Assembly (NCBI GenBank): GCA_016839055.1
Contig: JAEKNX010000005.1
Span: forward strand, 248,001-312,000
Origin: Spirochaetales bacterium
Lineage (GTDB): Bacteria; Spirochaetota; Spirochaetia; UBA9216
Reading direction: 5' to 3'
DNA length: 64,000 bases
Each line of letters starts with the position of its first letter. Within the stretch, counting starts at the first letter, position 1. Positions 9,494-36,767 of this stretch are shown piece after piece. The position numbers and the translations under genes were made by a program. The notes under the pieces are model-generated. The model was not told the origin of the DNA. It ran no database searches and saw only the letters and a program-made list of their open reading frames with translations.

Positions 9494-9543
9494 ATTTTAG
9501 AAACATTTAAGGCTTGGGAAATTTAAAAAGGATCAGGTGCATT

Positions 9544-12500: not shown

Positions 12501-15198
12501 TGTTCTTTCGGTTGTAAACGATAAGGGAACCGTTGTTTCAAAAACATCCTTCTCGATTGTCGGAGCAGAAAACATACAACGAAGTCTTGACCGTACCGCC
12601 GAGCTTGATCTCAAGCTGGACAAGAAGGATTACAAACCCGGCGAGACTGCAGAAATCTTCATTAAGGCCCCCTATTCAGGCGGCGGACTGATAACAGTTG
12701 AGCGAGATAAGGTTTACAATTACAAATGGTTCACCCTTGACGGAAGTTCGACTGTACAGAAGATAGTTATTCCGGAGGAAATGGAAGGAAACGGTTATAT
12801 TACCGTTTCTCTTACCCGAAGTCTTGATTCGAATGAAATATACATGAGCCCCTTGAGTTACGGCCTGCTTACATTTTCCGTCAGCAAGGAAAAGCATACG
12901 AATAAAATTGAAATAGAGATCCCGGAAGAGGCCCGGCCCGGCGAAGCTTTTTCGATAACCTACAGTTCCTCAAAGTCCGGGCGTATAGCTGTTTTTGCTG
13001 TGGACGAGGGTATCCTTCAGGTAGGCCGGTATGAAACTCCCGATCCGATTTCTTTCTTCTTTAAGAAGCGGGCGCTTGAGGTCGGCACCTCGCAGATTCT
13101 TGATCTTGTACTTCCCGAGTTCGATGTTGTAAAAGCCTTATCAGCGATGGGAGGCGGTGCCGGTGCGGATGAACTTTCCCGTAATCTTAACCCGTTTAAA
13201 CGCAAAAAAGTTGAGCCTGTTGCCTACTGGTCAGGCATAATAGATTGCGGGCCGGAGAAGCGTACGCTCGAATATATGGTGCCGGATTATTTCAACGGCA
13301 GTCTGCGAGTTATGGCTGTAGCTGTTTCGCAGGATGCCCTCGGCGCGGTTGATAAGAGCTCGCTTATACGAAGTCCCTGGGTGATTCAGCCTAATCTGCC
13401 TTCAATGGCTGCCCCGGGTGATGAGTTCGACATTTCAGTGACAGTTACAAATATGAATAAGGGAAGCGGTCCGGACTCTAAGGCTGTTCTAAAAGTCGAT
13501 CCGGGTGAGCGTCTGAGCATAATCGGAGACAGAGAGTATACTCTTTCAATGGCTGAAGGAAAGGACGCTGTTGTCAAATTCAAACTTAAGGCTCTGGATA
13601 AAAACGGAGGCGCGGAGCTTAAATTCAGCGTCAGCGGGCTTGGTGAGCAGTCTTCAATATCCAGTTATCTGAGCATAAGGCCGCCCGTACCCTACCGCAC
13701 CGAACTACAGGCAGGTGTTGTTGAGAAGAATCTTGTCAGGCTTGATATTGACCGCGATGTCTATGACGATTTTGCCGAACGAAAGGTCTCGGCTTCATAT
13801 CTGCCGTTGAGCCTTGCCGACGGTCTTAATTTCTACCTCGAAAAGTTTCCTTACGGATGTACCGAGCAGATAACGAGTATGACTTTTCCGAAATTGTATC
13901 CGAAGATGGTTGAAGGACTTGATATGGACAGGTCTGAAATAAAGGAAGATGTTAACCGCACTATCAATATTCTTCAGGCACGGCAGAAGAGTTCGGGCGC
14001 CTTCGGTTTGTGGACATCTAATTCAAATCCGCATCCTGTTATCGACAGCTACGTAATGCATTTTCTCACTCTTGCCCGTGAAAATAACTATTATGTCCCA
14101 GAGTCCATGTTTGACAAAGGCCTGAATAGACTTAGGGAAATAGCCTCTTCAAAGAAAACCGGGGAAAATGATTTAACAGATAGGTGTTATGCCGTATATA
14201 TCCTGACTCTTAACCAGATTGTAACGACGAGTTATATCGAAAAGCTGACCTCTGATCTTAAAACCAATTTCGAAGATTGGGAGTCCGGCTTCTGCGGTAT
14301 GTTCCTGTCAGGCTCATACGCGCTAATGAAACAACAGCGCGAGGCAGAATCTCTTATTCGAAAGGCTTCCGGCAGCATAAAGCGCGAGATATATCTGGAT
14401 TACTACAATGAACTTTGTTATCCGTCCATCTATCTGTACATGCTGGGTGAATACTTTCCTGAAAGCATAAAATCGGTCTCGGCTGATCTGCTGAAACAGA
14501 TTTCCGAAGACATAGATCGCGGTGTTTACAGTACCTTCTCCGCGAATTACGCGATGCTCGGAATCAGCTCCTATCTTGAAGCTGTTCAGCCGGCCGTAAA
14601 TCGCGGACTTGAGCTCTCGGAAGAAGACGCACAGAAAAATGCAGTTGTGCTTAAGCCTGAAGGCGATACCTTACTGAGCGCTGATTATTCGGCAAAGGCC
14701 GAGAGCGTCAGTATCCGGAACAAAGACTCTGTACCCCTGTTTTATCAGCTGACATCGGCAGGTTTTGATCTTGAAATACCACAGCAGAGCAACAACGGAA
14801 TCGAGGTCTTCAGGGAGTATGTGACTGATGAGGGCGAGGTTGTAAACGAGCTGCCTGTCGGAAGTAATATAAACGTCAGAATCAGGTGCCGTGCGCTTGA
14901 GAGCAAACGAATCAATAATATTGCTATCGTGGATTTACTCCCGGCCGGGCTTGAAGCCGATATCCGTTCAATCAGGGATTCAGCTTCCTCCGGGAATATG
15001 AAGCCAGAATACATTGATATCAGGGAAGACAGGGTAATCCTGTTTGTCGATATCAATCAGGATATGAAAGAGTTCACATACAAGGCAAGGGCAATTAATA
15101 CCGGAAGCTTCGTGACGCCGCCGGCATTTGCCGAATCGATGTACGACCTTGATATCTGGTCTCTTAATCCATGTGAACGGCTGGTAATAACGGAATAG
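9544..15198 (+). CDS. yfhM: Bacterial alpha-2-macroglobulin family protein (YfhM-like), thioester type
   Basis: A very large protein of about 1884 residues. Residues 25-50 (KILIGIILLIVLFAAFAIW) form a membrane anchor, after which the whole chain would face the periplasm. Many macroglobulin-type beta-sandwich domains follow. PYGCTEQ near residue 1439 is the Cys-x-Glu-Gln thioester signature, followed by the alpha/alpha-toroid helices expected there (HPVIDSYVMHFLTLA). The family traps attacking proteases by covalent capture. I prefer the ATG at 9544 to the TTG at 9514, since AAGGATCAGG precedes it. It abuts pbpC without a gap, the usual partnership linking protease defence to wall repair. Confidence 0.93.
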   Translation: MEEKNEKPNTTLFSNIIDKLKQNKKILIGIILLIVLFAAFAIWSLYLASKPQPIMIDYSVNKPSETDYEENKIYPLEIDFKGSAARLEDSGKVPVVPPVISPEIEGEWLWKDDSELVFTPGSAWVIGEHYQVKLPKELFPSHIEVADRSFEFDINPFQISFSRTEFYIDPEDSRVKRVIADISCNYPVDKNSVEDRIFIKPDIRAGSGGVQFRNYNFSTTFSDDGRYIYIVSEPVGMPAEDIKMEIIIEPGLVSAHGGKEIRDRKSSSVTVNGVSSYVRVNSIDHQMIKNEQMKYEQVVMINTKGKASLDEVYDNLELWLLPVDKPELPGLKGQKNYRWRHIDDVAPEVLNLSSRIKSEAIPVELEYNSINSFKIDATPDRYVYLKLKAGTEFFGGYYLYKDYETIFQLKDYPRELSILSEGSVLSLSGSKKLSMLSLGINAVDYTISRIRPDDLNHLVSQSNGNLSNFNFSNYRFNEYNISEVYRKTEKISNSSDPQNLTYFSFNFNDYLSDVPDKNLKHGLFMFEVEGERPYSHYSEKRFVLVTDLGIFIKTNDEGNKDIFVQSIADGLPVSGAVVELWGRNGNVVESIVTGRDGHVGFEGLSRFKNENSPTVWVVRKGNDLSFMSFEGNDRRLDYSDFDTGGIRGAQNPRTLTAFLFSDRGIYRPGDNFNIGMIIKAGDWGIDLADTPLECIISDPSGLQIYSEPIKLSSSGFEEINYRTQDYSQTGLYNVSLYVIKNNKRRDFLGSTQLKIEEFLPDTLNVVAGFTPKPADGWISPDDITLEVKARNLFGTAAEGNKVKLSMSLSPGYQYFRQYSDYEFFDPLLKNESYHEELGSRTTDAAGSVIQKINLGKFDTGTYNLRVDSEVFEKESGRSVQAAASVIVSPLKYLVGKKLDGSVRYINKNTERSISLIAVSDKLEQIEADDLKLRISEVKYVSSLVREPNGVYKYKSIKKEDTLSEESLVIRASGTRVNFPTGTAGEFVLSVVNDKGTVVSKTSFSIVGAENIQRSLDRTAELDLKLDKKDYKPGETAEIFIKAPYSGGGLITVERDKVYNYKWFTLDGSSTVQKIVIPEEMEGNGYITVSLTRSLDSNEIYMSPLSYGLLTFSVSKEKHTNKIEIEIPEEARPGEAFSITYSSSKSGRIAVFAVDEGILQVGRYETPDPISFFFKKRALEVGTSQILDLVLPEFDVVKALSAMGGGAGADELSRNLNPFKRKKVEPVAYWSGIIDCGPEKRTLEYMVPDYFNGSLRVMAVAVSQDALGAVDKSSLIRSPWVIQPNLPSMAAPGDEFDISVTVTNMNKGSGPDSKAVLKVDPGERLSIIGDREYTLSMAEGKDAVVKFKLKALDKNGGAELKFSVSGLGEQSSISSYLSIRPPVPYRTELQAGVVEKNLVRLDIDRDVYDDFAERKVSASYLPLSLADGLNFYLEKFPYGCTEQITSMTFPKLYPKMVEGLDMDRSEIKEDVNRTINILQARQKSSGAFGLWTSNSNPHPVIDSYVMHFLTLARENNYYVPESMFDKGLNRLREIASSKKTGENDLTDRCYAVYILTLNQIVTTSYIEKLTSDLKTNFEDWESGFCGMFLSGSYALMKQQREAESLIRKASGSIKREIYLDYYNELCYPSIYLYMLGEYFPESIKSVSADLLKQISEDIDRGVYSTFSANYAMLGISSYLEAVQPAVNRGLELSEEDAQKNAVVLKPEGDTLLSADYSAKAESVSIRNKDSVPLFYQLTSAGFDLEIPQQSNNGIEVFREYVTDEGEVVNELPVGSNINVRIRCRALESKRINNIAIVDLLPAGLEADIRSIRDSASSGNMKPEYIDIREDRVILFVDINQDMKEFTYKARAINTGSFVTPPAFAESMYDLDIWSLNPCERLVITE

Positions 15199-17571
15199 AT
15201 GAGGCGCCTTAATAAGTTTCGTTTGACCGGGAAGAAAGTAATCCTTGCATCAGCGGCAGTAGCGGTAATCTTGTTTTTGATGCTCCTTCTGCTGATGCCT
15301 GCGGGGGCTTGTCTTGATGATTTTACGTTTTCAACAGCGGTACTTGACCGCAATGGAGAGATGCTCAGGATCTTTCTGACTGAGGATGAGAAATACCGGA
15401 TCAGGGAGCCTCTCGCTGGTTTTTCCCCGCAGTTTATTGAGATGATTCTGCTGAAGGAGGACCGGTATTTTTACTCACATCCGGGTGTTAATCCGGCAGC
15501 CCTTGTTAAAGCCGCCTGGAGTACCTATGTGTCGAAGGATTACCGCATGGGAGCCTCGACAATTACCATGCAGCTTGCAAGACTTAAATACCATCTGCAT
15601 ACAACCCGGATTCCAGGCAAAATCGATCAGATCTTTAAAGCCTTTTATCTGGAAATAAAATACTCCAAACAGGAAATTCTTGAAGCTTATATGAACCTTG
15701 CTCCCTGCGGGGACAATATAGAAGGATTTCCTGCGGCTGCATATTATTACTACCATAAAAACCTGGGCGAACTTACCCTTTCAGAGATGTTCTTTCTCGC
15801 GGTGCTTCCCCAGGCTCCGAACGCCAGGGCTCCGCAGCCTGGGCATGTTCCTGCTGAGAGCTTGGAAGCCCGCAGTCTGCTGTATTCGGATTGGCTCAAG
15901 GAGCATCCTGAAGACGCGGAGTACTCTGCGCAGATGGATATGCCGGTGTCGTTTTATTGCAGCTTCCCGTTTAAAGCTCCCCACGCGGCAGACTATGTAA
16001 AGGCTCTGACGCCTGCGGAGCAGGGCCCACCCGGTGAGGCATTAAGCTCAATGATATCCACAAGCCTTGATCTGCATTATCAGGAATTGGTTGAAAGACA
16101 TGTTGAGAACTACCTCCGTTCAAAGCGGAGCATCGGGGTAAACAACAGCAGTGTGCTGCTTCTTGATTTCTCAACAATGGAAGTTCTTGCGGCTGTTGGA
16201 TCGGCCGACTTTTTCGATGACGGGATTGAAGGTCAGGTAAACGGGTTTACGGCCAAACGTTCGCCGGGTTCTACCCTTAAACCGTTTATATATGCGATGG
16301 CTATTGAGCAGGGTATTATTCACCCTGATTCGATGCTGAAAGATACTCCTACCAGCTACGGCGTATATACACCGGATAATTATCAGAGCGACTTCAAGGG
16401 GCCGGTTAAGGCCTGGGAAGCCCTGGTTCACAGCCGGAATATTCCCGCCATTAATCTTGCTGTCGAAATTGAAAACCCCGATCTCTATGATTTTCTCATC
16501 AATGCCGGCGTTACCGGTCTTAAAGACCGGGGATATTACGGATTGTCGATAGTTCTGGGCAGCGCTGAGGTTACGATGCTTGAGCTTGTCTCAATGTACG
16601 CCGCCCTCGGGAATGAGGGACTGCAGTATCCGCTGCAATTTCTAAAAGAAACGCCTGTTGAGCCGGTAGAAAAACGTTTATTGTCGATGGAGTCAAGTAT
16701 TCTGACTCTTCGAATGCTTCAGAAAAATCCGGAGCCTACTGAACACCGGCCGGCACGGGCGCGATCAGTTCCCGTTGCCTATAAAACCGGTACATCGATA
16801 GGCTTCAAGGACTGCTGGTCGGTGGGTATCTTTGACCGATATGTAATCTGCGTATGGATAGGAAATTTTAACGGCGACGGCAACCCTGCCTTTCTAGGGC
16901 GTAATACGGCGGCGCCGCTTCTGTTTTCAATTGCCGATTCTATTATCCTGGAAATTCCGGCTGAAAAGAAATACCGCCCCATGATGCCTCCCAATACTAT
17001 ATCGCAGGTTGAGGTCTGCAGCGTTTCCGGCTGTATTCCGAACGATAGCTGTCCTGACACCATTATGACCGACTTCATTCCGGGTGTATCCCCGATAACA
17101 AGATGCCGGATTCACCGCGAGGTTTTTATTGATACCGCGACAGGATATCGAACCGCCCGGATTGGCGACCCCGGGGTAATAAAAACAGTGAGAGAGTTCT
17201 GGTCTTCCGATATGCTCAGGCAGTTCAAGCTTGCAGGTCTTCCGCGGATTACCCCTCCGCCCATGGAGCCTGAAAACAACAGCAGGAATCAAATTTCAGA
17301 GGGAAGTCCGCCAATGATCATCAGTCCTCTTACCGGCGGAACTTATATAATAAGGCGGACAAGAACAAGAAACAACTCCATACCTCTGGTGGCCGTGGCG
17401 GATGCCGACACCACAACGCTTTTCTGGTTTTCAGATAATAATTTTATTGGAAAAACCGCCCGTGACGGAAGACTCGAATGGTTCCCCAAAGAGGGTGAAT
17501 ACAGCCTTACCGTTCTTGACGACATAGGCCGATCAGATACGGTTATGGTCATAATAGAATCAGCGCAGTAG
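15199..17571 (+). CDS. pbpC: Penicillin-binding protein 1C (bifunctional glycosyltransferase/transpeptidase)
   Basis: A 790-residue protein anchored by a transmembrane helix at about 13-35. The GT51 glycosyltransferase domain has catalytic Glu87 in KEDRYFYSHPG and GASTITMQLARL. The transpeptidase domain has Ser358-x-x-Lys361 (GSTLKPF), S-x-N in HSRNIPA and K-T-G in AYKTGTS. The C-terminal 150 residues match the PBP1C-specific tail (PLTGGTYII). It polymerises and cross-links peptidoglycan. The ATG directly follows the macroglobulin stop codon, so the two genes form one transcription unit. Confidence 0.95.
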   Translation: MRRLNKFRLTGKKVILASAAVAVILFLMLLLLMPAGACLDDFTFSTAVLDRNGEMLRIFLTEDEKYRIREPLAGFSPQFIEMILLKEDRYFYSHPGVNPAALVKAAWSTYVSKDYRMGASTITMQLARLKYHLHTTRIPGKIDQIFKAFYLEIKYSKQEILEAYMNLAPCGDNIEGFPAAAYYYYHKNLGELTLSEMFFLAVLPQAPNARAPQPGHVPAESLEARSLLYSDWLKEHPEDAEYSAQMDMPVSFYCSFPFKAPHAADYVKALTPAEQGPPGEALSSMISTSLDLHYQELVERHVENYLRSKRSIGVNNSSVLLLDFSTMEVLAAVGSADFFDDGIEGQVNGFTAKRSPGSTLKPFIYAMAIEQGIIHPDSMLKDTPTSYGVYTPDNYQSDFKGPVKAWEALVHSRNIPAINLAVEIENPDLYDFLINAGVTGLKDRGYYGLSIVLGSAEVTMLELVSMYAALGNEGLQYPLQFLKETPVEPVEKRLLSMESSILTLRMLQKNPEPTEHRPARARSVPVAYKTGTSIGFKDCWSVGIFDRYVICVWIGNFNGDGNPAFLGRNTAAPLLFSIADSIILEIPAEKKYRPMMPPNTISQVEVCSVSGCIPNDSCPDTIMTDFIPGVSPITRCRIHREVFIDTATGYRTARIGDPGVIKTVREFWSSDMLRQFKLAGLPRITPPPMEPENNSRNQISEGSPPMIISPLTGGTYIIRRTRTRNNSIPLVAVADADTTTLFWFSDNNFIGKTARDGRLEWFPKEGEYSLTVLDDIGRSDTVMVIIESAQ

Positions 17572-17636: not shown

Positions 17637-17684
17637 ATACTTGGCCGTCTTATCTGTTGCGGCCAAGTATTAGTTCTTTTTTTA
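17637..17684 (+). terminator. Rho-independent terminator after pbpC
   Basis: An 11-base perfect stem (ATACTTGGCCG at 17637-17647 and CGGCCAAGTAT at 17660-17670) with a 12-base loop is followed by a T-rich run. It separates pbpC from the convergent cleavage-enzyme gene, and may partly stop the opposite strand as well. Confidence 0.85.
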
Positions 17685-18500
17685 CTTTTTTATACTGAGG
17701 ATTTCTTTAGCTTCAGCGACGTTAGCTATTGGTCTATCCAGCATTCCTGCTATTTTAACAATCCTTTCAACAAGCATTGAATTCGTAGCGGGAACATCTT
17801 TTTTATATGTCAGGCAGTCTTCAATACCTGTTCTTACATGCCCTCCGAGGAGAATAGCGGTTGTTATCATCGGCACCTGAGCGCTGCCTATGCCGCTGAC
17901 AGTCCAGGTTGAGCCGGGAGGAAGACTATCAACGAGGAATGATAAGTTTCTAATAGTTCCCGGCATGGAGCCGGGGACACCCATAACCAGATTGAAATGA
18001 AGAGGTCCTTTCAGGACACCCTTTTTTTCAAGCCATAGTGCATTTGTCATCATCGAATAGTCGAAGATTTCCAGTTCAGGCTTTATTCCGTTATCATTCA
18101 TCTTGACGGCAAGCTTCTCTATTAGTTCAAAGGAATTAGCATTAACCATCTTTGCAAAGTTCGAGGAGCCCGTTGCAAGGCTTGCCATATGGCAATCCAG
18201 ATCAAGCATCTGGCCGCGCCATTCGAAGGTGTTCTCTCCTCCGCGGGCACCGGTCGAGAGCTGTTTGATGACATCAATTTTTTCATCATCAATTCTCTTT
18301 AATACCTTTTTAAAGACCTTACGGTCACTTGTCGGTTTAAGATCCTCATTACGAACATGAATATGAGCAATGGAGGCTCCGAGCTCAACACAGTTTTTTA
18401 TATCCGCAACAATTTCATCTACTGTCAGCGGTGCCTGCGGATGCTTTTCTCGTGTGGGAACATTTCCTGTTGGAGCAATAGTTACAATCAGTTTTTCCAT
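17682..18500 (-). CDS. Beta-keto acid cleavage enzyme (BKACE / Kce family, DUF849)
   Basis: A 272-residue zinc-dependent TIM-barrel enzyme. The family condenses a beta-keto acid with acetyl-CoA to give acetoacetate and a new acyl-CoA; the founding member, Kce, cleaves 3-keto-5-aminohexanoate in lysine fermentation. Zinc ligands His46 and His48 lie in AHIHVR, with Glu227 in GIEDCL, and the substrate loop VMGVPGSMPGT is present. The N-terminal loop reads PTGNVPT rather than the CGAEVTK form I recall from Kce, so the keto acid may differ. It starts nine bases after the carrier gene's stop. The neighbouring CoA-transferase could activate the acetoacetate product. Confidence 0.88.
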   Translation of the reverse strand: MEKLIVTIAPTGNVPTREKHPQAPLTVDEIVADIKNCVELGASIAHIHVRNEDLKPTSDRKVFKKVLKRIDDEKIDVIKQLSTGARGGENTFEWRGQMLDLDCHMASLATGSSNFAKMVNANSFELIEKLAVKMNDNGIKPELEIFDYSMMTNALWLEKKGVLKGPLHFNLVMGVPGSMPGTIRNLSFLVDSLPPGSTWTVSGIGSAQVPMITTAILLGGHVRTGIEDCLTYKKDVPATNSMLVERIVKIAGMLDRPIANVAEAKEILSIKK

Positions 18501-18509
18501 ATTAAACCT

Positions 18510-19907
18510 CTACAGGAAAATCAGGAAAGCTGAGATTACAATGCCGGCAAGAATTGCTACCATCATACAGTAGCCCATTATATCCTTAACAGATAAACCG
18601 GCTATAGCCAGAATAGGCAGGGCCCAGAAAGGCTGAATCTGATTTGTCCATGAGTCACCCCATGCCAGAGCCATGGCAACCTTGGCCGGATCAGCACCGA
18701 TGGCGTGTGCTGCGGGGATCATTATGGGTCCCTGAACCGCCCACTGTCCTCCTCCGGAAGGAACAAAAAGATTAACAAAACCTGCGCTTAAAAAAGTAAA
18801 CAGCGGGAATGTTGTTGCCGTTGAGAAACTAACAAACCAGTTTGACATTATTCCTGCAAGTCCTGAAGTCTTCATCATGCCCATTATTCCGGCATAGAAG
18901 GGGAAAAGCAATGCCACACCTCCACAAGTTTTGATGGCTTCATTTATTGCCTGAACATATTTGATCGGCGTTTTATGGGCTATCATTCCAAGGATAAGGA
19001 AGATGAATATAACGATATTGAGATTAAGATCAAATCCGTTCAACCTGAAATGGTTGAAAATGATAATTAAACCGGGTACCGCAATTATTAACGATAGAAT
19101 CCTGCTGTTGTTCAATCTAGCAGAAGGGGTATCGAGGACCACTTTAACTTCTTCGATTTTATCTTCCATGACAAGGCGCTCATCAATTTCGATGATTTTG
19201 TCTTTTCCCTTAGGCATCATTTTCATATATAGAAGGGGAATGAGAATGAATAAGGTTACAGTCATGATAATATTCCATGAGCTGAATAATGTACTGGAAA
19301 CTGGAACTATCCCGATAATATCCTGTAGGAAGTGTCCATCGGTCGCGATAACAAGCGGAATTGATGAGGAAGGTCCTCTGACGAGGTTCCCACTATAGGC
19401 CGCGGCTATCAGGATGGGGTAATGCAGTCCCTTTCCACGATTCTGGATGGCTACTTCCTTCGCTATTAGAGCTCCAGCTATAAGACCGAATCCCCAGCTG
19501 ATATACGAGCAAATATAGGCTACCATCGCCGTAAACATAACTGCCTGGGTAGGAGTCTTGGGTATTTTCGCGAGAGCCTTAAGTATTTTTACTACAAAAG
19601 GTGATCTAGCCAGAGCATAACCTGTTATCAACACGAATATCATCTGCATTGTAAACTTCAGCAGACTGAAATATCCCTTGTACCAGAAATTAAGCATCTT
19701 CATTGGCCCGTGCTCTGTCAAGATGAGGCCTAAAGCGAATACTATTACAGTTAGTATAATTGCAAATACAAAAGGGTTCGGCAGGTATTTTGCAACCAGC
19801 TTGACCAGGGCATTGGTCATAATCTTAATTATTCCGACACGGCCCTCTGGCTTGTCGGTTGATTTTTTACGTCCTTTATTCGGCAGGACATCAGAAACAT
19901 TACTCAT
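18510..19907 (-). CDS. atoE: AtoE-type short-chain fatty acid carrier
   Basis: A 465-residue polytopic membrane protein with about a dozen hydrophobic segments. GLIAGALIAKEVA, AYSGNLVRGPSSSIPL and FVPSGGGQWAVQGP are characteristic of the AtoE short-chain fatty acid transporter family. It would import or export a short-chain acid, or perhaps the keto acid used by the adjacent cleavage enzyme. The ribosome site AAGGAG precedes the ATG at 19907. Upstream lies the first copy of the structured terminator element, so expression is likely controlled by read-through at that element. Confidence 0.88.
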   Translation of the reverse strand: MSNVSDVLPNKGRKKSTDKPEGRVGIIKIMTNALVKLVAKYLPNPFVFAIILTVIVFALGLILTEHGPMKMLNFWYKGYFSLLKFTMQMIFVLITGYALARSPFVVKILKALAKIPKTPTQAVMFTAMVAYICSYISWGFGLIAGALIAKEVAIQNRGKGLHYPILIAAAYSGNLVRGPSSSIPLVIATDGHFLQDIIGIVPVSSTLFSSWNIIMTVTLFILIPLLYMKMMPKGKDKIIEIDERLVMEDKIEEVKVVLDTPSARLNNSRILSLIIAVPGLIIIFNHFRLNGFDLNLNIVIFIFLILGMIAHKTPIKYVQAINEAIKTCGGVALLFPFYAGIMGMMKTSGLAGIMSNWFVSFSTATTFPLFTFLSAGFVNLFVPSGGGQWAVQGPIMIPAAHAIGADPAKVAMALAWGDSWTNQIQPFWALPILAIAGLSVKDIMGYCMMVAILAGIVISAFLIFL

Positions 19908-19963: not shown

Positions 19964-20068
19964 AAAAAAAACCAGCACAACGCAGACCTCTGATTAAAAG
20001 GTCTTTGAAATACTGGTTCTTATCCACTCAAGCATACCGGGTTACGGTATGCCCATAAATAAAACAGT
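19964..20068 (-). promoter_or_regulatory. Structured RNA element with intrinsic terminator, copy 1 (riboswitch-like)
   Basis: Read on the minus strand: an ACTG-T4-AT strand (20059-20068); a hairpin GCATACC/GGTATGC with loop GTAACCC (loop 20039-20045); the 17-base block ATAAGAACCAGTATTTC; an inner hairpin AGACCT/AGGTCT; then CTGGTT followed by eight T. AACCAG (20013-20018) can pair either upstream with the ACTG strand or downstream with CTGGTT to form a terminator (19964-20018). That mutually exclusive layout is typical of riboswitches and attenuators. It lies 56 bases before the atoE start, inside the 250-base gap after the CoA-transferase beta gene. Confidence 0.75.
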
Positions 20069-20157
20069 TCTTAATACTATATGTCAGGAATAAATCACTA
20101 TTGCGATATTATTACATGCTTTTTTTTAAAGCGCAAGCTAAGTTTATCTTTTTTATC

Positions 20158-20823
20158 TTAAGATAAATCTATACGTTTGAAATCGGGCGCTATTATGAGA
20201 TCAGCCTCAGTACTCGAAGCTATAAAATCTTCATCATAGGGGCTGAATGCTTCTTTCAGAATGAAGGTATTATCCCTTATCTCAAAGTGACCGAGATCGG
20301 TTATAAGAATGTTTACCTCATTCTGTGCAGTAAGGGGAAGGCTGCATTTTTTTAACAATTTAGATTTTCCATTCTTATCAAAATGTACGGTAGCAGCTAT
20401 TACCACCTTTGCCCCGACAGTGAGATCCATGGCTCCACCCATACCGGGAACCATCTTGCCGGGCACCTTATAATTAGCAAGGTTGCCGTTCTGGTCGACC
20501 TCAAGTACTCCGAGTACAGTATAGTCAACATGACCGCCGCGAATGATTCCGAATGACGTTGCCGAATCAAAGTAACATCCGCCGTTTTTCATTGTAACAG
20601 GTTGTCCTCCTGCGTTTACGAGAAAAGGATCTGCTTGCCCTTCAGCGGGAACAGGCCCGAGGCCCAGGAAACCATTCTCGGATTGTAGAATTATATCAAC
20701 ACCCTCGGGAAGGAAATTACCTACAAGGGTAGGTAGACCAATTCCAAGGTTTACGACATCTCCAGACTTGAAAAGTCTTGCTATACGCTTTGCTATGATG
20801 TCTTTTCTAGGTTTATATTCCAT
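20158..20823 (-). CDS. atoA: CoA-transferase subunit beta (AtoA/ScoB-like)
   Basis: A 221-residue beta subunit of a family I 3-oxoacid CoA-transferase. The catalytic glutamate is in QSENGFLGLG, the subunit B signature. GVDIILQSENG and NAGGQPVTMKNGG are also conserved, as is GGHVDYTVLGVLEVD. With the alpha subunit it moves CoA between acyl-CoA and a free acid such as acetoacetate. Its ATG overlaps the alpha gene's end by 11 bases. After its stop comes a 250-base AT-rich stretch that holds RNA element copy 1. Confidence 0.92.
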   Translation of the reverse strand: MEYKPRKDIIAKRIARLFKSGDVVNLGIGLPTLVGNFLPEGVDIILQSENGFLGLGPVPAEGQADPFLVNAGGQPVTMKNGGCYFDSATSFGIIRGGHVDYTVLGVLEVDQNGNLANYKVPGKMVPGMGGAMDLTVGAKVVIAATVHFDKNGKSKLLKKCSLPLTAQNEVNILITDLGHFEIRDNTFILKEAFSPYDEDFIASSTEADLIIAPDFKRIDLS

Positions 20824-21511
20824 TTTTAACCTCCCTGTTTTCAGTTCTTACAAGATAATTAACGAAGATCGACGGGGTAATAACATTCTCAGGATCTATT
20901 TCACCTATTTCGACAATTTCATCCGCCTGTACAATAACGGTACTACATGCCATTGCCATCAGCGGGCCGAAGTTACGGGCTGATCTTGCGTACTGAAGAT
21001 TCCCAGCCTTGTCTGCTCGGCTTGCATGGATGAGGGCAATATCGCCCTTCAATGGATATTCGAGAAGAAATTTTTTCCCGTCCACTTCAATTACCTGTTT
21101 GCCTTCTTCTACCTCTGTTCCGACACCGGTTGGAGTCAGAAAGCCGCCTAAACCACAGCCTGCTGAACGAATCTGTTCGGCCAGAGTTCCTTGCGGAACA
21201 AGTTCTACTTCCGTTTCTCCGTTTAGCAGCTGCCTCTGTATTTCCGGATTAAGTCCAATATGGCTCGTGATAACCTTTGAAAATTGTTTTTTCTTCACAT
21301 TTTTCGCTACGCCGGTTGCGATATTTTTTACTGAATCATAGAGTCCGCAGTCGTTGCAGATCAAGGTCAATCCGTCTGTATCAGATTCGGCAAGTGATTT
21401 CAGCAGCTCGGGCGGTGAACCGCAGCCCATGAATCCTCCGACCATTACTTTTTGACCAGAAGAAATTAGTTTAGCCGCATCTGCTGAACTTATTATTGGT
21501 TTTTCAATCAT
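20813..21511 (-). CDS. atoD: CoA-transferase subunit alpha (AtoD/ScoA-like)
   Basis: A 232-residue alpha subunit. GGFMGCGSPPELL is the family I signature near the N-terminus, and AGCGLGGFLTPTGVGTEVEEG and GDIALIHASRADKAGN are typical. I place the start at the ATG at 21511 because AAGGAGAG lies just upstream and the longer open frame to 21688 runs back through the RNA element into the DUF3870 gene. The most likely substrate is acetoacetate or a related keto or branched acid, judging by the cleavage enzyme in the same unit. Confidence 0.93.
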   Translation of the reverse strand: MIEKPIISSADAAKLISSGQKVMVGGFMGCGSPPELLKSLAESDTDGLTLICNDCGLYDSVKNIATGVAKNVKKKQFSKVITSHIGLNPEIQRQLLNGETEVELVPQGTLAEQIRSAGCGLGGFLTPTGVGTEVEEGKQVIEVDGKKFLLEYPLKGDIALIHASRADKAGNLQYARSARNFGPLMAMACSTVIVQADEIVEIGEIDPENVITPSIFVNYLVRTENREVKNGI

Positions 21512-21541
21512 CAGAATCTCTCTCCTTATATTTTTGGATAT

Positions 21542-21642
21542 AAAAAAAACCAGCACGACAAAGAACCATAGTTGGCCTTCGAAATACTGGTTCTTATTCA
21601 CTATAGATCGGCGGGTTACGCCGGCCCTATAAATAAAACAGT
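21542..21642 (-). promoter_or_regulatory. Structured RNA element with intrinsic terminator, copy 2 (riboswitch-like)
   Basis: The element has the same architecture as copy 1: ACTG-T4-AT strand (ending at 21642); hairpin with the identical 7-base loop GTAACCC (21613-21619) on a different stem sequence (CGGC/GCCG); the identical block ATAAGAACCAGTATTTC; a different inner hairpin (AAGGCCA/TGGTTCTT, one bulge); and CTGGTT plus eight T (21542-21549). Loops and joining segments are conserved while stems change in a pairing-preserving way, which is the signature of a selected RNA fold. It begins directly after the DUF3870 stop codon and ends 30 bases before the CoA-transferase alpha start. Confidence 0.78.
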
Positions 21643-22428
21643 CTAAACTATAAAAGTATTTAAATAATCTATATTTTCGTTCTTCCATTCAGTAAAAATA
21701 GTAAAATTACTTCTAAATATAACACATGCTGCCTTCTGTGCTGAACAGTGAAAATTAAATTTCACTAATTCTACAAGACAATCAACATCAGCTTCGGAAT
21801 TAAATTTTTTACCGACTGAAAGGCTTTTAATGAAGTCTTCAGCCTCATCGGTAATAAATGTTCCACAACAGTCAAGTATTAAATTTGTCGGCAGCTCGAT
21901 AACAAAACCTATACCAAGCGCCCCCTTGAAAAATGCCAGCGAGTTATTCTGTGGTATTCTGGCATAAGAAATCAGATAAATTGAATGTTCTGGATAAACT
22001 TTCATTGTTTCCAGATTCGGGATTTCTTTTAAAGCCGTATTTTCATCACATTTTTTTTTTTGCTCCGCAAGTTTGCCCTGATTCTCATTTTCCCATTCAT
22101 GATAGCGTCTGAAATTCTCATGCATTATTACACATACCGATTTCTGTGAAAAGCCATGAAAATGCAGTTTTATATCATCAATCAAGGGTTCAATATCGTC
22201 ATACAATGAAAAGCCGATGATTATACCCTTTAGAAAATTCCGGGCAACCTCAGTAAGGAGGGTACAGCTCACGTCTTCGATAATTCCAGTATGATAATTT
22301 ACAACTATTCCTACGCCTATATAACCTTCATAGACCGCTGCCGAAATATTAGACGGCAGTTTAGAATAGGAGATAAAATAAACATGCTTTTCGGTATTAT
22401 ATTTAAGTTCTATTACAGGCACCTTCAT
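21643..22428 (-). CDS. Tandem DUF3870 protein
   Basis: A 261-residue soluble protein made of two copies of the same module (about residues 10-110 and 145-250). Each copy has a VYFISYSKLP or IYLISYARIP strand, a GxGxV loop, an acidic helix and a C-terminal F-x-x-SQK or CSAQK segment. I recognise this as the DUF3870 family, whose function I do not know; single-copy members are about 95-110 residues. It heads the CoA-transferase unit and is separated from it by RNA element copy 2. A sensing or small-molecule-binding role for this catabolic unit is possible but unsupported. Confidence 0.7.
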   Translation of the reverse strand: MKVPVIELKYNTEKHVYFISYSKLPSNISAAVYEGYIGVGIVVNYHTGIIEDVSCTLLTEVARNFLKGIIIGFSLYDDIEPLIDDIKLHFHGFSQKSVCVIMHENFRRYHEWENENQGKLAEQKKKCDENTALKEIPNLETMKVYPEHSIYLISYARIPQNNSLAFFKGALGIGFVIELPTNLILDCCGTFITDEAEDFIKSLSVGKKFNSEADVDCLVELVKFNFHCSAQKAACVIFRSNFTIFTEWKNENIDYLNTFIV

Positions 22429-23934: not shown

Positions 23935-24034
23935 GTATCATAAATGTGCTACTGATAAGCCAATAATTGATTCATCAGCCTTTCTTTGATATTTACCGGC
24001 TAAACAGCCTAAAATTCAAGAAGGAGAGATGCCC

Positions 24035-24553
24035 ATGGCAGATACTGCCCAAACCTTACCTCACCAGAGAACAGATGCAGAAATTATTCAACAGACAGAC
24101 ATCGTCGTCGGTGAATTCATCGGAAGAAAGGGAGCCCTTATTCCCGTTCTTCAAACACTTCAGGATATTTTCGGACACTTACCGGAACTTTCTCTTAAAA
24201 GAGCAGGGGAACTGCTTGAAATACCGTACAGCGAAGTTGCGGGAGTAGTAAGTTTCTACAAGTACTTTTCAACCGTTCCGAGGGGTAAATACCTGATAAG
24301 GGTATGCCTTGGAACCTCATGTTATGTGCGCGGAGGAAAAGAGGTTCTCGAAAGCTTCAAAAATAATCTTGGAATTGGTATCGATGAAACGACTGAAGAT
24401 CAGCTTTTTTCACTCAAGGTTGGCAGATGTTTCGGAGCATGCGGTCTTGCGCCTGTAGCAATGATTAATGATGATATTTACCGGCGGGTAAAGCCTTCTA
24501 AGGTTGGTGAAATACTCCAGAGCTATAAGGTGATGGAGGCCACTGATGATTAA
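24035..24553 (+). CDS. hydC: NuoE/HydC-like [2Fe-2S] subunit of NAD(P)-linked [FeFe]-hydrogenase
   Basis: A protein of about 173 residues with the thioredoxin-like [2Fe-2S] fold of the 24-kDa complex I subunit. The four ligands are in CLGTSC and CFGAC. The N-terminal helical bundle (PVLQTLQDIFGHLP) is also typical. It passes electrons between the flavin subunit and HydA. I prefer the ATG at 24035, since AAGGAG at 24021-24026 gives better spacing than to the ATG at 24029. The next gene overlaps by eight bases. Confidence 0.93.
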   Translation: MADTAQTLPHQRTDAEIIQQTDIVVGEFIGRKGALIPVLQTLQDIFGHLPELSLKRAGELLEIPYSEVAGVVSFYKYFSTVPRGKYLIRVCLGTSCYVRGGKEVLESFKNNLGIGIDETTEDQLFSLKVGRCFGACGLAPVAMINDDIYRRVKPSKVGEILQSYKVMEATDD

Positions 24554-27500
24554 GAATATTAAAGATCTGAAAAAAATTAAAAACGATAATAAAGAAAAGC
24601 TGGATTTCAGGATGCTCGCAATTGATGCAACGGATGATATCGAAAATCAGATGATATCTAAAAGCGGTCGTTACGATATTGCGCTCTGCATGGGTACCAG
24701 CTGCCAGTCATCAAAGTCAACAGAAGTTGCTGCCGCCCTTGAAGAAGAAATAAAAAAATATGGAATGGAAGATAAGGTTACAATAGTCAGAACAGGTTGT
24801 AACGGATTCTGCGCCGTCGGACCTATTATGGTCATGTACCCCGGCGGTATTCTGTACAACGGAATGGAAGCTTCCGACGTTCCTGAAATTTTTAATGAAC
24901 ACATTAATAATCACAGACTCGTTGAGCGCTGCATGTACCGTCATCCGGTTTCCAATGCCGTTATACCGCGTTATATGGATCTTCCTTTCTTTGCGAAACA
25001 GGAACTTCGTGTCCTGCGAAACAAAGGCATAATTGATGCCGACAGTATTGATGAGTACATCGGACGCGACGGATATTTCGGTTTTGCCAAAGCTATTAAT
25101 GAGTTTAGTCCGGAGCAGGTTGTAGCTGAAGTAAAAGAATCAGGACTCAGAGGGCGCGGAGGCGGAGGCTTTCTGACAGGCCTTAAATGGTCGTTCTGCA
25201 AGAACTCAGAGAGTGACAAGAAATACATCCTCTGTAATGCCGACGAGGGAGACCCCGGCGCTTTCATGGATAGAAGTATTCTTGAATCTGATCCGCATTC
25301 TGTAATTGAAGGAATGCTGATTGGCGCTTATGCCATCGGTGCCGATGAAGGTTATATTTACTGCCGTGCCGAATACCCTCTGGCCTTAAAGCGCCTCGAA
25401 ACCGCTATCGCAAAATGCGAAGAATACGGCCTGATTGGCGATAATATTCTGGGCAGCGGATTTAATTTTAAACTGCAGATTTCGCGCGGTTCAGGAGCAT
25501 TTGTCTGTGGTGAAGAGACCGCTCTTATGAACTCCATAGAGGGCAAGCGCGGTGAGCCGCGGCCCCGTCCGCCGTTTCCTGCAGTCAAGGGACTCTGGGG
25601 AAAACCTTCTGTTCTCAACAATGTTGAAACCTTCGCGAATATTCCTCTGATACTCTTTAACGGCCACGAGTGGTACCGCACTACTGGAACCGAGAACTCT
25701 CCGGGAACTAAAATTTTCGCGTTGACAGGTAATGTCAGAAATGTCGGTCTTGTGGAAGTTCCCATCGGAACGAGTCTTGGAGATTTAATTTATGATATAG
25801 GCGGAGGAATGCAGGAAGGCAAGATATACAAATCTGCCCAGATTGGAGGCCCCTCAGGCGGCTGTATACCAAAGAGTCATCTCAGCGTATCTCTTGATTT
25901 CGAATCTCTGCAGGAGCTAGGGGCAATAATGGGCTCGGGCGGACTTGTGGTTATGAGCGAAGACACCTGTATGGTGGATGTTGCAAAATTTTTCCTGGAA
26001 TTTGTTCTCGAGGAATCCTGCGGAAAATGTGTTCCCTGTCGTGTGGGCATTAAAAGAATGCACGAAATTCTTGAACGGATTACCGAAGGCCAAGGAGAAG
26101 AAGAGGATATAGAGCGTCTAATAACCCTTGGAAACATGATAAAGCTAACCTCGCTCTGCGGACTGGGCCAAACCGCTCCAAATCCGGTACTTTCGACCAT
26201 CCAGCATTTCAGACATGAATATGAGGATCATATTGTTCATAAACACTGTGCCGCCGGCGTTTGTCCGGGTCTTGTACGCGCACCCTGCCAGTCTGCCTGC
26301 CCTGCAGGTGTTGATATTCCGGGCTTTGTATCTCTTATCAAAGAAAAACGGTATGCCGAGGCACTGCAGCTGCACCGGGAGAAGAACCCCTTTGCCGCAA
26401 TTTGCGCCCGGGTCTGTTTTCACACCTGTGAAGATAAATGCCGTCGCGCCATGCTCGATGACTCTGTCTCAATCAGGGCACTGAAGCGGTATCTCGTGGA
26501 GCAGGAAATCGTCGTTCAGCTGCCTGAAGTTCTTGAGAACAATAAGAACGCCGTTAAAAAGGTCGCCGTAATCGGCGCCGGTCCGGCAGGTTTGTCCTGC
26601 GCATATTTTCTCGCGCGGCTGGGATATCAGCCTGTGATATATGAGGCCGAGAGCAGACCAGGCGGTATGCTTACTCAGGCAATTCCCGCGTACAGACTTC
26701 CACGTGAAGAAATCGCCCGGGAGATAAGGATGATTGAACGTATAGGAGTTGAAATAAACTGCGATATGAAACTCGGCCGGGACATCACTCTTAAACAGCT
26801 CAGGGATGACGGCTGTGATGCCATCTTCTTCAGCGGAGGCGCGCCCATAGGTACAGGCCTTGGTATACCAGGCGAAGATGCCGACGGAGTCGATGATGCT
26901 CTGAGCTTTCTCAAGCAGTATAACATCCGCGGAAATGTCAGGATTAATCGAAACATACTTGTTATTGGCGGTGGAAACGCGGCAATAGATGCTGCAAGAA
27001 GTGCAGTCCGACTCGGTGCCGATTCGGTAACAATAGTATATCGAAGAAAGCGTAGTCAGATGCCGGCCTACCAGGAAGAGGTTGAAGAAGCAATTGTTGA
27101 GGGTGTAAAGATAATTGATTTAACCCAGCCGGTAGAAGTTATTAAATCAGCCGACGGTAAGGTTGCAGGATTGAAATGTCTTCATATGACCCTAGGCTCT
27201 TTTGATAAGCAGGGCCGCAGGCGCGCGGTGAAGGAAAACGAGGAGTACTTCGTTATAAAAGGAGATCAAATAATAACCGCAATCGGTCAGAATATTGACG
27301 CTTCTGGTTTCAGTGAGATAGATGGTCTAGAGCTTAACGAAAAGGGATATATAAAAATAAATCCAAGTACCGGCCGAACCTCGGTTGACTGGCTCTATGC
27401 CGGCGGAGATACCACATCTGGTCCATCTTCAGTTGTGAAGGCAATTCATGCCGGGGAAATAGCTGCTGTCGGTATAGATTATCACTTAAGCGGTGAAGAT

Positions 27501-27731
27501 CATGCATTCTGGCGGGAAGAACGAAAACTTGAGATTCCCTTTGATCCTGATGCCGATCCGGCTCCTTATCCAAGAGAGAAGGTGCCATTAATTCCTGCCG
27601 AAAAACGAAGATCAAATTTTGATGAAGTTGAGCTTCCATGGTCTGAAGCAGTGGCTCTCAGACAGAGCTCGAGATGTCTTCGCTGTGATTACGGCAAACC
27701 TGTTATCCCCAGAGAGGTATTAAATGATTGA
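24546..27731 (+). CDS. hydB: HydB/NuoF-like NADH-binding subunit fused to GltD/NfnB-like flavoprotein
   Basis: A 1061-residue fusion. Residues 35-125 are a thioredoxin-like [2Fe-2S] domain (CMGTSC, CNGFC). Next comes the FMN/NADH domain (GLRGRGGGGFLTG, CNADEGDPGAFMD), the SLBB loop (IGGPSGGCIP) and the 4Fe-4S site (ESCGKCVPCR, SLCGLG). From about residue 575 a second enzyme begins: a cysteine-rich helical domain (CQSACPAGVDIPG, CEDKC), an FAD site (VIGAGPAGLSC) and a pyridine-nucleotide site (VIGGGNAAIDAARSA, YRRKRSQMPA), as in glutamate synthase small subunit and NfnB. The last motif favours NADPH. The usual C-terminal 2[4Fe-4S] module of HydB is absent. Confidence 0.93.
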   Translation: MIKNIKDLKKIKNDNKEKLDFRMLAIDATDDIENQMISKSGRYDIALCMGTSCQSSKSTEVAAALEEEIKKYGMEDKVTIVRTGCNGFCAVGPIMVMYPGGILYNGMEASDVPEIFNEHINNHRLVERCMYRHPVSNAVIPRYMDLPFFAKQELRVLRNKGIIDADSIDEYIGRDGYFGFAKAINEFSPEQVVAEVKESGLRGRGGGGFLTGLKWSFCKNSESDKKYILCNADEGDPGAFMDRSILESDPHSVIEGMLIGAYAIGADEGYIYCRAEYPLALKRLETAIAKCEEYGLIGDNILGSGFNFKLQISRGSGAFVCGEETALMNSIEGKRGEPRPRPPFPAVKGLWGKPSVLNNVETFANIPLILFNGHEWYRTTGTENSPGTKIFALTGNVRNVGLVEVPIGTSLGDLIYDIGGGMQEGKIYKSAQIGGPSGGCIPKSHLSVSLDFESLQELGAIMGSGGLVVMSEDTCMVDVAKFFLEFVLEESCGKCVPCRVGIKRMHEILERITEGQGEEEDIERLITLGNMIKLTSLCGLGQTAPNPVLSTIQHFRHEYEDHIVHKHCAAGVCPGLVRAPCQSACPAGVDIPGFVSLIKEKRYAEALQLHREKNPFAAICARVCFHTCEDKCRRAMLDDSVSIRALKRYLVEQEIVVQLPEVLENNKNAVKKVAVIGAGPAGLSCAYFLARLGYQPVIYEAESRPGGMLTQAIPAYRLPREEIAREIRMIERIGVEINCDMKLGRDITLKQLRDDGCDAIFFSGGAPIGTGLGIPGEDADGVDDALSFLKQYNIRGNVRINRNILVIGGGNAAIDAARSAVRLGADSVTIVYRRKRSQMPAYQEEVEEAIVEGVKIIDLTQPVEVIKSADGKVAGLKCLHMTLGSFDKQGRRRAVKENEEYFVIKGDQIITAIGQNIDASGFSEIDGLELNEKGYIKINPSTGRTSVDWLYAGGDTTSGPSSVVKAIHAGEIAAVGIDYHLSGEDHAFWREERKLEIPFDPDADPAPYPREKVPLIPAEKRRSNFDEVELPWSEAVALRQSSRCLRCDYGKPVIPREVLND

Positions 27732-29487
27732 TCTAACAATAAATGGAATACAAATGTCAGTTGAAAAAGGAACGACTATCCTTGATGCGGCTGCATTGAT
27801 AGGAGTGAAAATCCCTACATTATGTCACCTTCAGGGACAGCATCCGCTTGGAGCATGCAGGATTTGCGTTGTTGAGGTGGAAGGGGCTAAGGTCCTTATG
27901 CCGTCCTGTGCCACGCCGGTGACAATGGGAATGGTTGTTCAGACAAACAGCAGGAAGGTTCGTGAGGCGAGGACGCTTGTTGCGGAATTGCTTTTGAGCG
28001 AGCACGAAGGCAACTGTCAGTACTGTGACAGAAGCAGTGATTGTGAGCTTGAGGCCATTACTTCACTTCTTGGAATAAACAAACCGCTCTATATAGGAGA
28101 AAAACCTGAGAGCCGTTTCGACTACACGACTAAGGCGCTTATTCGCGACACCGGGAAGTGTATAAAATGCCGGCGGTGCGTCACCGTCTGTAACGAGATA
28201 CAGAAGGTGGGAGCGCTATTCCCTCAGAATCGCGGATATGAAACTGTCATAGGCCCGGCATTTACCCTGGATCTCGCCGACGTGCAATGTGTACAGTGTG
28301 GACAGTGTGCCGCCGTCTGCCCTGTCGGCGCCATTGTAGAACGCTCGAGTATAAGCGAAATATGGGATGCAATTGAAGATCCGACAAAACACGTTGTCGT
28401 ACAGACGGCGCCTGCAATCCGCGCGGCCCTCGGTGAATGCTTTGACTACGAACCCGGAACCCTCGTGACCGGTAAGATGGTCTCGGCGCTGCGGTTACTA
28501 GGTTTTAACGCCGTTTTTGATACGAACTTCGCAGCTGATCTGACTATTATGGAAGAAGGAACCGAACTGCTTACAAGACTGAAGAAGAAGCTTGTTGACG
28601 GTGAGGACATAGCACTCCCAATGTTCACCAGCTGTTCTCCCGGCTGGATTAACTACGCCGAGTATTTTCAGCCCGATTACCTCGATAATCTTTCAACCTG
28701 CAAGTCGCCTCAGCAGATGTTCGGGGCGGTAGCCAAGACCTACTATGCGGAAAAGATGGGAATAGATCCGAAAGACATCATAGTAGTGTCCGTCATGCCC
28801 TGTACCGCGAAAAAGTATGAGGCTGCAAGAGAAGAAATGGCTGACTCAGGCTTCACCGACGTTGATTATGTTCTCACAACTCGTGAGCTCGGAGGTATGA
28901 TTAAATCAACGGGAATAAACTTCAGGGAACTGCCTGACGGCGTAATGGATAATCCCCTCGGGCAGTCCACCGGCGCAGCCGACATTTTCGCCAACACCGG
29001 CGGAGTTATGGAGGCGGCAATCCGTACGGTTTATGAGCTGGTAACAGGCAGAGAAATTCCGTTTGAGAATCTCCATCTCACACCAGTTGCCGGACTCGAA
29101 GGCCTGAAGGAAGCAAGTCTGAAAATTGAGGGAACAGTAAAAGAATGGAGTTTTCTTGAGGGTGTCGAGCTAAGCGTTGCTGTAGCCCACGGTCTCGGAA
29201 ATGCCGCGGAAGTCTTCCGTAGACTGAAGGCGGATCCCGGCCGGTATCATTTTGTCGAAGTAATGACCTGTCCCGGCGGATGTATAGGCGGAGGAGGTCA
29301 ACCGAGATTTACCGATGATTCTACGAGGCTAAAACGTATGAAAGCAATTTATGCCGAAGATGAAGGTAAGCCGCTCAGGAAATCGCATCTGAATCCGTCA
29401 ATCGCAAAGATTTATGAAGAATATCTCATACAGCCGCTTGGAGAGAAATCTCATCATCTGCTTCATACACATTATACAAAAAAATAG
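27724..29487 (+). CDS. hydA: [FeFe]-hydrogenase catalytic subunit HydA
   Basis: A 587-residue group A [FeFe]-hydrogenase. The N-terminal [2Fe-2S] domain has Cys34, 45, 48 and 62. A His-ligated 4Fe-4S site follows (HEGNCQYCDRSSDC), then two ferredoxin clusters (CIKCRRCVTVC, CVQCGQCAAVC). The H-cluster ligands are Cys304 (TSCSPGW), Cys360 (MPCTAKK), Cys516 and Cys520 (CPGGCIGGGGQP). The small-subunit helix ends the chain (HLNPSIAKIYEEYL). It makes or consumes H2 with NAD(P)H, and possibly ferredoxin. Its start overlaps hydB by eight bases. The maturase gene hydE is about 33 kb downstream. Confidence 0.97.
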   Translation: MIDLTINGIQMSVEKGTTILDAAALIGVKIPTLCHLQGQHPLGACRICVVEVEGAKVLMPSCATPVTMGMVVQTNSRKVREARTLVAELLLSEHEGNCQYCDRSSDCELEAITSLLGINKPLYIGEKPESRFDYTTKALIRDTGKCIKCRRCVTVCNEIQKVGALFPQNRGYETVIGPAFTLDLADVQCVQCGQCAAVCPVGAIVERSSISEIWDAIEDPTKHVVVQTAPAIRAALGECFDYEPGTLVTGKMVSALRLLGFNAVFDTNFAADLTIMEEGTELLTRLKKKLVDGEDIALPMFTSCSPGWINYAEYFQPDYLDNLSTCKSPQQMFGAVAKTYYAEKMGIDPKDIIVVSVMPCTAKKYEAAREEMADSGFTDVDYVLTTRELGGMIKSTGINFRELPDGVMDNPLGQSTGAADIFANTGGVMEAAIRTVYELVTGREIPFENLHLTPVAGLEGLKEASLKIEGTVKEWSFLEGVELSVAVAHGLGNAAEVFRRLKADPGRYHFVEVMTCPGGCIGGGGQPRFTDDSTRLKRMKAIYAEDEGKPLRKSHLNPSIAKIYEEYLIQPLGEKSHHLLHTHYTKK

Positions 29488-36379: not shown

Positions 36380-36428
36380 CTGTTCAATTCCCCTGGGCCG
36401 GGGTAAGCTTTGGAGGTGGGGGGAATCG
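36380..36428. repeat. 49-bp direct repeat, tmRNA-overlapping copy
   Basis: Bases 36411-36428 of this copy are the 3' end of tmRNA (T-arm and acceptor side). The remaining bases flank it and include a CCCCGG/CCGGGG palindrome that may serve as a weak terminator. Confidence 0.75.
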
Positions 36429-36767
36429 AACCCCCGTCCTAACGGGCCCAATACAAGCGTCTACAGGTTTAGTTTCTTCTTAAGTGTTCGGATACAGGAC
36501 GGTGAAAAAACCTACCACCTATATCTATATTCTGAATAGTTGTCCTCATTATTGATCAGACTCAATAACAAGTAAGCTCTGGTTTGTTACAGGAGCAGCC
36601 GACCTTCGGAGCAGCATGTCGGCGTCCCGCACAGCTTAATTAAGCTGCTAAAGCGTAATTTGCTTCGGTTTTATCGTTGGCAATTACTAGTTTTTCCAGT
36701 TTTAAGAGTTAGAGCTCTACCTGCAGCCTATACCGTAACATCCGCCAGTCGAAACCGGTGCACCCCC
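36411..36767 (-). ncRNA. ssrA: tmRNA (transfer-messenger RNA)
   Basis: About 357 bases. The 5' end GGGGGTG (36767-36761) pairs with CACCTCC at the 3' end to form the 7-bp acceptor stem, followed by A as discriminator; CCA is not encoded. GGTTTCGACTGG near the 5' end and GGTTCGATTCC at the T-arm are diagnostic. The tag frame runs from GCC at 36681 to TAA ending at 36640 and encodes ANDKTEANYALAA, so the full tag on stalled proteins would be A-ANDKTEANYALAA. The LAA end is the ClpXP degradation signal. smpB, its protein partner, lies 1.0 kb away on the same strand. Confidence 0.97.

Follow-up and report, generated by a model that had tools for sequence, protein, structure and literature searches.

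The window analysed here is a 64,000-nucleotide stretch of a Spirochaetales genome. Its minus strand carries, in order of transcription, a gene for a tandem DUF3870 protein, an RNA element (copy B), atoD, atoA, a second RNA element (copy A), atoE and the gene of a beta-keto acid cleavage enzyme (BKACE):

21643..22428, minus strand: tandem DUF3870 protein, 261 aa, two copies of PF12986 (Pfam PF12986, 6.3e-30, two stretches; genome-level association)
20813..21508, minus strand: CoA-transferase alpha subunit (AtoD-like), first gene behind copy B (PF01144, 7e-61; TIGR02429)
20158..20823, minus strand: CoA-transferase beta subunit (AtoA-like; TIGR02428, 1.9e-84)
18510..19907, minus strand: AtoE-type short-chain fatty acid transporter, first gene behind copy A (PF02667, 8e-147)
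17682..18500, minus strand: BKACE, last gene of the operon (PF05853, 2e-87)

This gene order agrees with the first-pass annotation, which had placed one copy before the CoA-transferase genes and the other before the carrier and cleavage-enzyme genes. That annotation covered positions 19964-21642 and did not mention the DUF3870 gene, which lies outside them (21643-22428); copy B starts at its stop codon. A mechanically called ORF running across copy B (20813-21688) is merely an open frame, and atoD starts at 21508, downstream of the copy B terminator. The BKACE scored below the equivalog cut-off for the lysine-fermentation enzyme KCE (297 versus 382 bits). DUF3870 was the only Pfam domain found in the 261-aa protein, whose two domains are 35% identical. 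We found DUF3870 in none of the 59 other spirochaete relatives searched, which suggests that the operon was acquired by horizontal transfer. No DUF3870 gene was found in viral contigs.

Judged from translations, NuoE/NuoF-like and iron-only hydrogenase-like genes lie next to each other at 24029-29487 and resemble an electron-bifurcating hydrogenase cluster, and 9514-17571 encodes a large alpha-2-macroglobulin-like protein followed by a PBP1C-like transglycosylase/transpeptidase. A tmRNA gene lies at 36410-36767.

Two RNA copies with alternative helices

Both RNA copies lie on the minus strand where the first-pass annotation had put them (copy B, 21642-21542; copy A, 20068-19964). They can be aligned over about 109 nt with 74% identity (mean column identity, 82%), and their likeness ends at the edges of the element. 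As had been described, the loop GTAACCC, the block ATAAGAACCAGTATTTC and CTGGTT followed by eight T are identical in both, and the stem bases differ between the copies with pairing kept. Measured against dinucleotide shuffles, the two copies folded with z-scores of -6.8 and -4.9, and none of 200 shuffles was equally good. The parts of the two copies are as follows:

21586..21642, minus strand: copy B antiterminator (sequence, fold, covariation in 76 relatives)
21642-21639 (ACTG) and 21638-21629 (TTTTATTTAT), minus strand: 5' strand of the copy B antiterminator
21601-21592 (GTGAATAAGA), 21591-21590 (bulge AC) and 21589-21586 (CAGT), minus strand: 3' strand of the copy B antiterminator
21619-21613, minus strand: loop GTAACCC of the copy B apical hairpin
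21542..21595, minus strand: copy B intrinsic terminator (sequence, fold, terminator covariation)
21595-21584 (AAGAACCAGTAT, pairing with GTGCTGGTT) and 21549-21542 (U8), minus strand: copy B terminator arms and U run, overlapping the antiterminator 3' strand
20012..20068, minus strand: copy A antiterminator (sequence, fold, covariation in relatives)
20068-20065 (ACTG) and 20064-20055 (TTTTATTTAT), minus strand: 5' strand of the copy A antiterminator
20027-20018 (GTGGATAAGA), 20017-20016 (bulge AC) and 20015-20012 (CAGT), minus strand: 3' strand of the copy A antiterminator
20045-20039, minus strand: copy A apical loop GTAACCC
19964..20021, minus strand: copy A intrinsic terminator (sequence, fold, terminator covariation)
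20021-20010 (AAGAACCAGTAT, pairing with GTGCTGGTT) and 19971-19964 (U8), minus strand: copy A terminator arms and U run

In the antiterminator, ACUGUUUUAUUUAU pairs with GUGRAUAAGA, then a 2-nt bulge AC, then CAGU, and encloses a hairpin with the loop GUAACCC. Counted as ACUG plus UUUUAUUUAU against GUGRAUAAGA plus CAGU, with AC bulged out, the stem has 14 bp, so that the alternative pairing of a shared segment proposed in the first-pass annotation is real and more extensive than claimed. The terminator helix joins AAGAACCAGUAU to GUGCUGGUU and is followed by U8. Because AAGAACCAGU belongs to both, antiterminator and terminator are mutually exclusive, and each element has what defines an intrinsic-terminator attenuator: exclusive helices that share a strand, one of them a hairpin with a U tract.

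Relatives of the RNA and their link to DUF3870

Comparison with the covariance models of Rfam 15 at the curated gathering scores returned no family for the two window copies, and none for the elements of 15 homologous loci, where the only matches were cobalamin riboswitches elsewhere in L067 and L087; the conserved element is thus apparently undescribed, as had been supposed. A covariance model built from the two window copies only (R1) found just these copies in 40 spirochaete relatives. An exact-pattern scan of 84,980 genomes gave 15 matches, a number within chance, none of them convincing by R1. DUF3870 was then searched for in 391 Clostridia genomes, where R1 matched directly downstream of the gene at L069, L074, L088, L065, L072 and L064.

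A second model (R2, eight sequences) was run on the same 391 genomes. At E<0.001 it recovered its training sites and three new ones (L116, L120 and L117), which are 5' leaders of dipeptide epimerase or DUF819 transporter genes behind -35/-10-like promoter sequence. Two of the host genomes were already known to carry DUF3870 elsewhere; the third, G395, has a DUF3870 gene in the same operon as the RNA, overlooked by our search with the window protein. R2 matches at E~0.1 in G410 and G425 (L118, L119) were dropped for want of a fitting context. When 40 genomes were searched at higher sensitivity, every match fell in a genome with DUF3870 and none in the 14 genomes without it, nine of which are of the same order.

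A third model (R3, 16 sequences) was run on 249 genomes of the order of G395. The final alignment, A10, has 79 rows, 76 of them distinct; two come from the window and the rest from Clostridia. One row is an antisense match and was omitted from the counts given below for stability, U runs and column 120. Homologues with covarying stems, which the first-pass annotation had named as support, were thus found. In A10, which was fitted to the antiterminator structure and so favours it, 86.3% of antiterminator cells are paired versus 27-42% with the partners slid, and 18 of 21 antiterminator pairs show double changes (275 such cells versus 91 in shuffles). For the terminator helix, which is absent from the covariance model used for A10, the figures are 92.9% paired versus 37-57% slid, with double changes at eight of ten pairs. 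Column 120 takes part in both helices and changes in step with its partner in each (39 rows read A-U-A or A-U-G, and 19 read G-C-G). This three-way covariation is direct evidence that selection maintains both alternative structures.

The terminator is the more stable structure in 63 of the 78 elements, by a mean of 3.9 kcal/mol, and 69 of the 78 have a U run of at least five. The best-conserved unpaired feature is an asymmetric internal loop, in which most rows have C (or U) facing ACC. The apical part is small; its loops vary in sequence and size across relatives. The apical loop G-Y-W-H-CCC proved not to be universal: only 4 of 23 loci that have no R3 match contain it (0.09 in shuffles, counting loops carried by a stem of 4 bp or more), and we treat it as a lead and no rule.

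Among the 249 genomes, R3 found the RNA in 46 and DUF3870 (PF12986) was present in 67. The covariance models had been seeded largely beside DUF3870 and the genome search itself made no use of it; DUF3870 was present in 43 of the 46 genomes with the RNA versus 67 of 249 overall (one-sided Fisher test, 2.7e-27, phylogeny ignored), and at E<=0.01 in 40 of 42 (8.6e-26, phylogeny likewise ignored). The 55 sites at E<=0.01 comprise 18 that share the strand of DUF3870 and start no more than 120 nt beyond its 3' end, 26 that lie up to 6 kb upstream of it and lead its operon, two further downstream of it, seven elsewhere in genomes with DUF3870, and two in genomes without detected DUF3870 (G584 and G609); none is antisense to DUF3870. 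Some of the seven unlinked sites could be due to contig breaks. L204 is unlinked inside a long contig, L205 (G457) is 20 kb from DUF3870, and L129 (G116), in a contig of 250 kb, is unlinked as well; the stretches read around L129, L130 and L204 contain no DUF3870 gene, making these trans sites. The site in G609, a draft genome, precedes a methylmalonyl-CoA mutase gene. In G584, the R3 element L213 (G584:C1:305487-305582) follows secA, with no epimerase, DUF819 or DUF3870 operon behind it, and is apparently a relic site. The DUF3870 gene of Sporolactobacillus (L063) was set aside, since the terminator behind it is a plain one without antiterminator strand.

The first genes behind the elements include those for glutamate/dicarboxylate symporters (SDF), dipeptide epimerase, M20 peptidase, methylmalonyl-CoA mutase, D-glutamate cyclases of two families, DUF819 and DctM/DcuC-like transporters, M19/M55 peptidases and AtoE. 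The closest counterpart of the window is the Clostridia operon L221 (G463), which reads DUF3870, element, AtoE, thiolase, AtoD, AtoA and thereby provides the homologue upstream of atoE that had been anticipated. G463 also has two DUF3870 domains in one frame, of 246 aa. A recurrent layout, seen for example at L208, L225 and L125, consists of a leader element, one or more genes, DUF3870, a second element and one or more further genes, and parallels the repeated use of the element in the window.

A putative DUF3870-operated attenuator

The genes behind homologues of the RNA belong to four or more unrelated pathways, and with downstream genes so diverse no common substrate accounts for the RNA. 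Because the target pathways vary while DUF3870 is constant, DUF3870 is the most likely trans-acting partner. We therefore propose, with a probability of roughly two in three, that the element acts as a transcription attenuator under the control of the DUF3870 protein, whose RNA binding we infer. Such an attenuator explains the shared DUF3870 and the varied pathways better than a riboswitch for a pathway metabolite does.

The nascent RNA can form either the antiterminator hairpin (lower A/U stem, asymmetric internal loop with C/U opposite ACC, ACUG/CAGU base and apical hairpin) or the terminator, which captures the antiterminator's 3' strand. In the proposed mechanism DUF3870, alone or with a catabolite, would bind the antiterminator at the internal loop, the stem and/or the apical loop and stabilise it, allowing RNA polymerase to read through; without DUF3870 the terminator would usually win and the downstream catabolic genes would be off. 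Default termination relieved by DUF3870 is the simplest model because the antiterminator holds the conserved unpaired bases and the terminator is on average 3.9 kcal/mol the more stable of the two; the presumed direction of control is read solely from where the conserved features are located. In the window, the DUF3870 gene comes first and would be transcribed ahead of the switch. Copy B would gate atoDA and copy A atoE and BKACE, so that each segment would be tested separately, as by the three pyr attenuators.

A protein-independent metabolite riboswitch, in which the antiterminator or its apical hairpin would form a small aptamer and DUF3870 would serve the same metabolism as an enzyme or accessory protein, seems unlikely to us. 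Leader position, two-state architecture and covariation are typical of riboswitches, conserved unpaired features are present (the C/ACC internal loop and the apical loop), and with many targets touching glutamate or muropeptide metabolism a shared ligand such as glutamate is conceivable. The targets nevertheless span atoDA/atoE-BKACE, methylmalonyl-CoA mutase operons, dipeptide epimerase and D-glutamate cyclase; besides the base and the flanking A/U stem there is just a small apical part of variable loop sequence, unlike most aptamers; and near-obligate co-occurrence with one protein family, at unlinked sites too, is unexpected for a self-sufficient RNA. A short-chain acid or CoA ester of this pathway, which the first-pass annotation named among possible ligands, is not supported in view of the same spread of pathways, whose common factor is a DUF3870 gene next to the element or at another place in the genome.

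We think it improbable that DUF3870 instead destabilises the antiterminator or stabilises the terminator and so represses the downstream genes, as PyrR or TRAP would: a separate anti-antiterminator is lacking, the antiterminator itself holds the conserved unpaired bases, and the targets are catabolic and uptake genes, which usually need induction, even though a regulator gene inside the operon with attenuators between later genes resembles the pyr operon (PMC7430163). Tens of homologues, with heavy covariation of both structures including the three-way case, contradict the first-pass annotation's fallback, a mere repeated terminator or a recent duplication within the operon that regulates nothing, and a terminator alone has no need of the upstream strand; two similar copies in one operon, and the lack of R1 matches elsewhere in 40 related spirochaetes, are what such a repeat would give, and we assign it almost no weight.

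The DUF3870-operated attenuator that we prefer appears to resemble HutP, LicT/RAT, ANTAR and PyrR systems in its working and to be unrelated to them by the membership features tested. HutP of the Bacillus subtilis hut operon is likewise a small single-domain protein with a catabolic operon, and its ligand-gated antitermination is the mode proposed here. The NAG repeats that HutP binds are located in the terminator region (PMC7430163, PMC8934654), whereas the conserved features of the DUF3870-linked RNA are in a separate antiterminator hairpin; hhalign showed no profile-level likeness of DUF3870 to B. subtilis HutP (probability 0.4, single sequence on the HutP side), and the DUF3870 profile found no HutP chain in the PDB. 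The RAT of BglG, SacY, LicT and GlcT is also a bulged antiterminator hairpin that precludes a terminator, and LicT contacts its two bulges and the stem between them (PMC7430163); the RNA described here exceeds it in length and has both a lower A/U stem and an apical hairpin, and a Pfam scan of the 261-aa protein detected no CAT or PRD domain. In the pyr operon, too, the regulator gene lies in its own operon with several attenuators between genes (PMC7430163), but the anti-antiterminator helix and ARUCCAGAGAGGYU consensus of PyrR targets are absent from our alignment, with no Rfam match, and Pfam detected no phosphoribosyltransferase domain in the window protein. The ANTAR protein EutV acts in trans to stabilise an RNA that excludes the terminator (PMC8934654), as proposed for DUF3870; that RNA has a pair of hexaloops, whereas ours has one hairpin with apical loops of various sizes and sequences, and Pfam found no ANTAR match in the window protein. 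The T-box sequence GGGTGGNACC is absent from both copies, with no Rfam T-box match, and no regulatory codon run of a leader peptide was evident in frames across them.

As for the protein, no PDB relative of DUF3870 was found by sequence, AlphaFold models, one made from the window protein by itself and one from an alignment of its two domains, had pLDDT values of 37 and 40, too poor for a fold search, and DUF3870 is not especially basic (median pI 6.8). Our literature search on DUF3870 or attenuation at these target genes returned nothing relevant, its sole near match concerning DUF3869 proteins; the main texts of two large structured-RNA surveys do not mention these targets by name, and their supplements may hold the motif unnamed.

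Taken more broadly, and with slightly less assurance, DUF3870 (PF12986) is probably a hitherto unrecognised family of antiterminators that bind RNA, probably respond to metabolites and have a structured RNA target of their own. In Clostridia and, via horizontal transfer, in a spirochaete, the family would control several catabolic regulons (short-chain keto acids, methylmalonyl-CoA pathway, glutamate uptake, cell-wall peptide recycling), and the GCC/GGC-stem variants would go with other DUF3870 subfamilies. Pairing with this RNA would provide a testable role for a Pfam domain that so far has none assigned, add a regulator-RNA pair to the few known protein-dependent antitermination systems, predict regulons for muropeptide, glutamate, methylmalonyl-CoA and acetoacetate metabolism in anaerobes, and offer a compact, portable switch.

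Variant elements

Under stricter filters, 24 of the 67 genomes with DUF3870 had no RNA match. Variant elements with the base stem GCC/GGC occur downstream of DUF3870 at L066, L067, L086 and L087, including methylmalonyl-CoA mutase operons. Another architecture lies between DUF3870 and acyl-CoA transferase genes at L245, L260, L261, L262 and L263; it has a promoter-like sequence of its own, a terminator GCACG...CGTGC and apical loops of which GGTATCCCC is an example. The two types suggest that RNA and DUF3870 subfamilies diverged together. Since R3 scores both types weakly or not at all, they may account for part of the 24 genomes; in other cases the DUF3870 stop is immediately followed by the next gene, as at L250 and L251.

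At L127 (3266-3677, G456) about 410 nt more than in close relatives, perhaps an insertion, separate the DUF3870 stop from the element. Cobalamin riboswitches lie upstream of the DUF3870 genes in the methylmalonyl-CoA mutase operons of L067 (1226-1403) and L087 (1209-1383), where they and the DUF3870-linked RNA may act in series.
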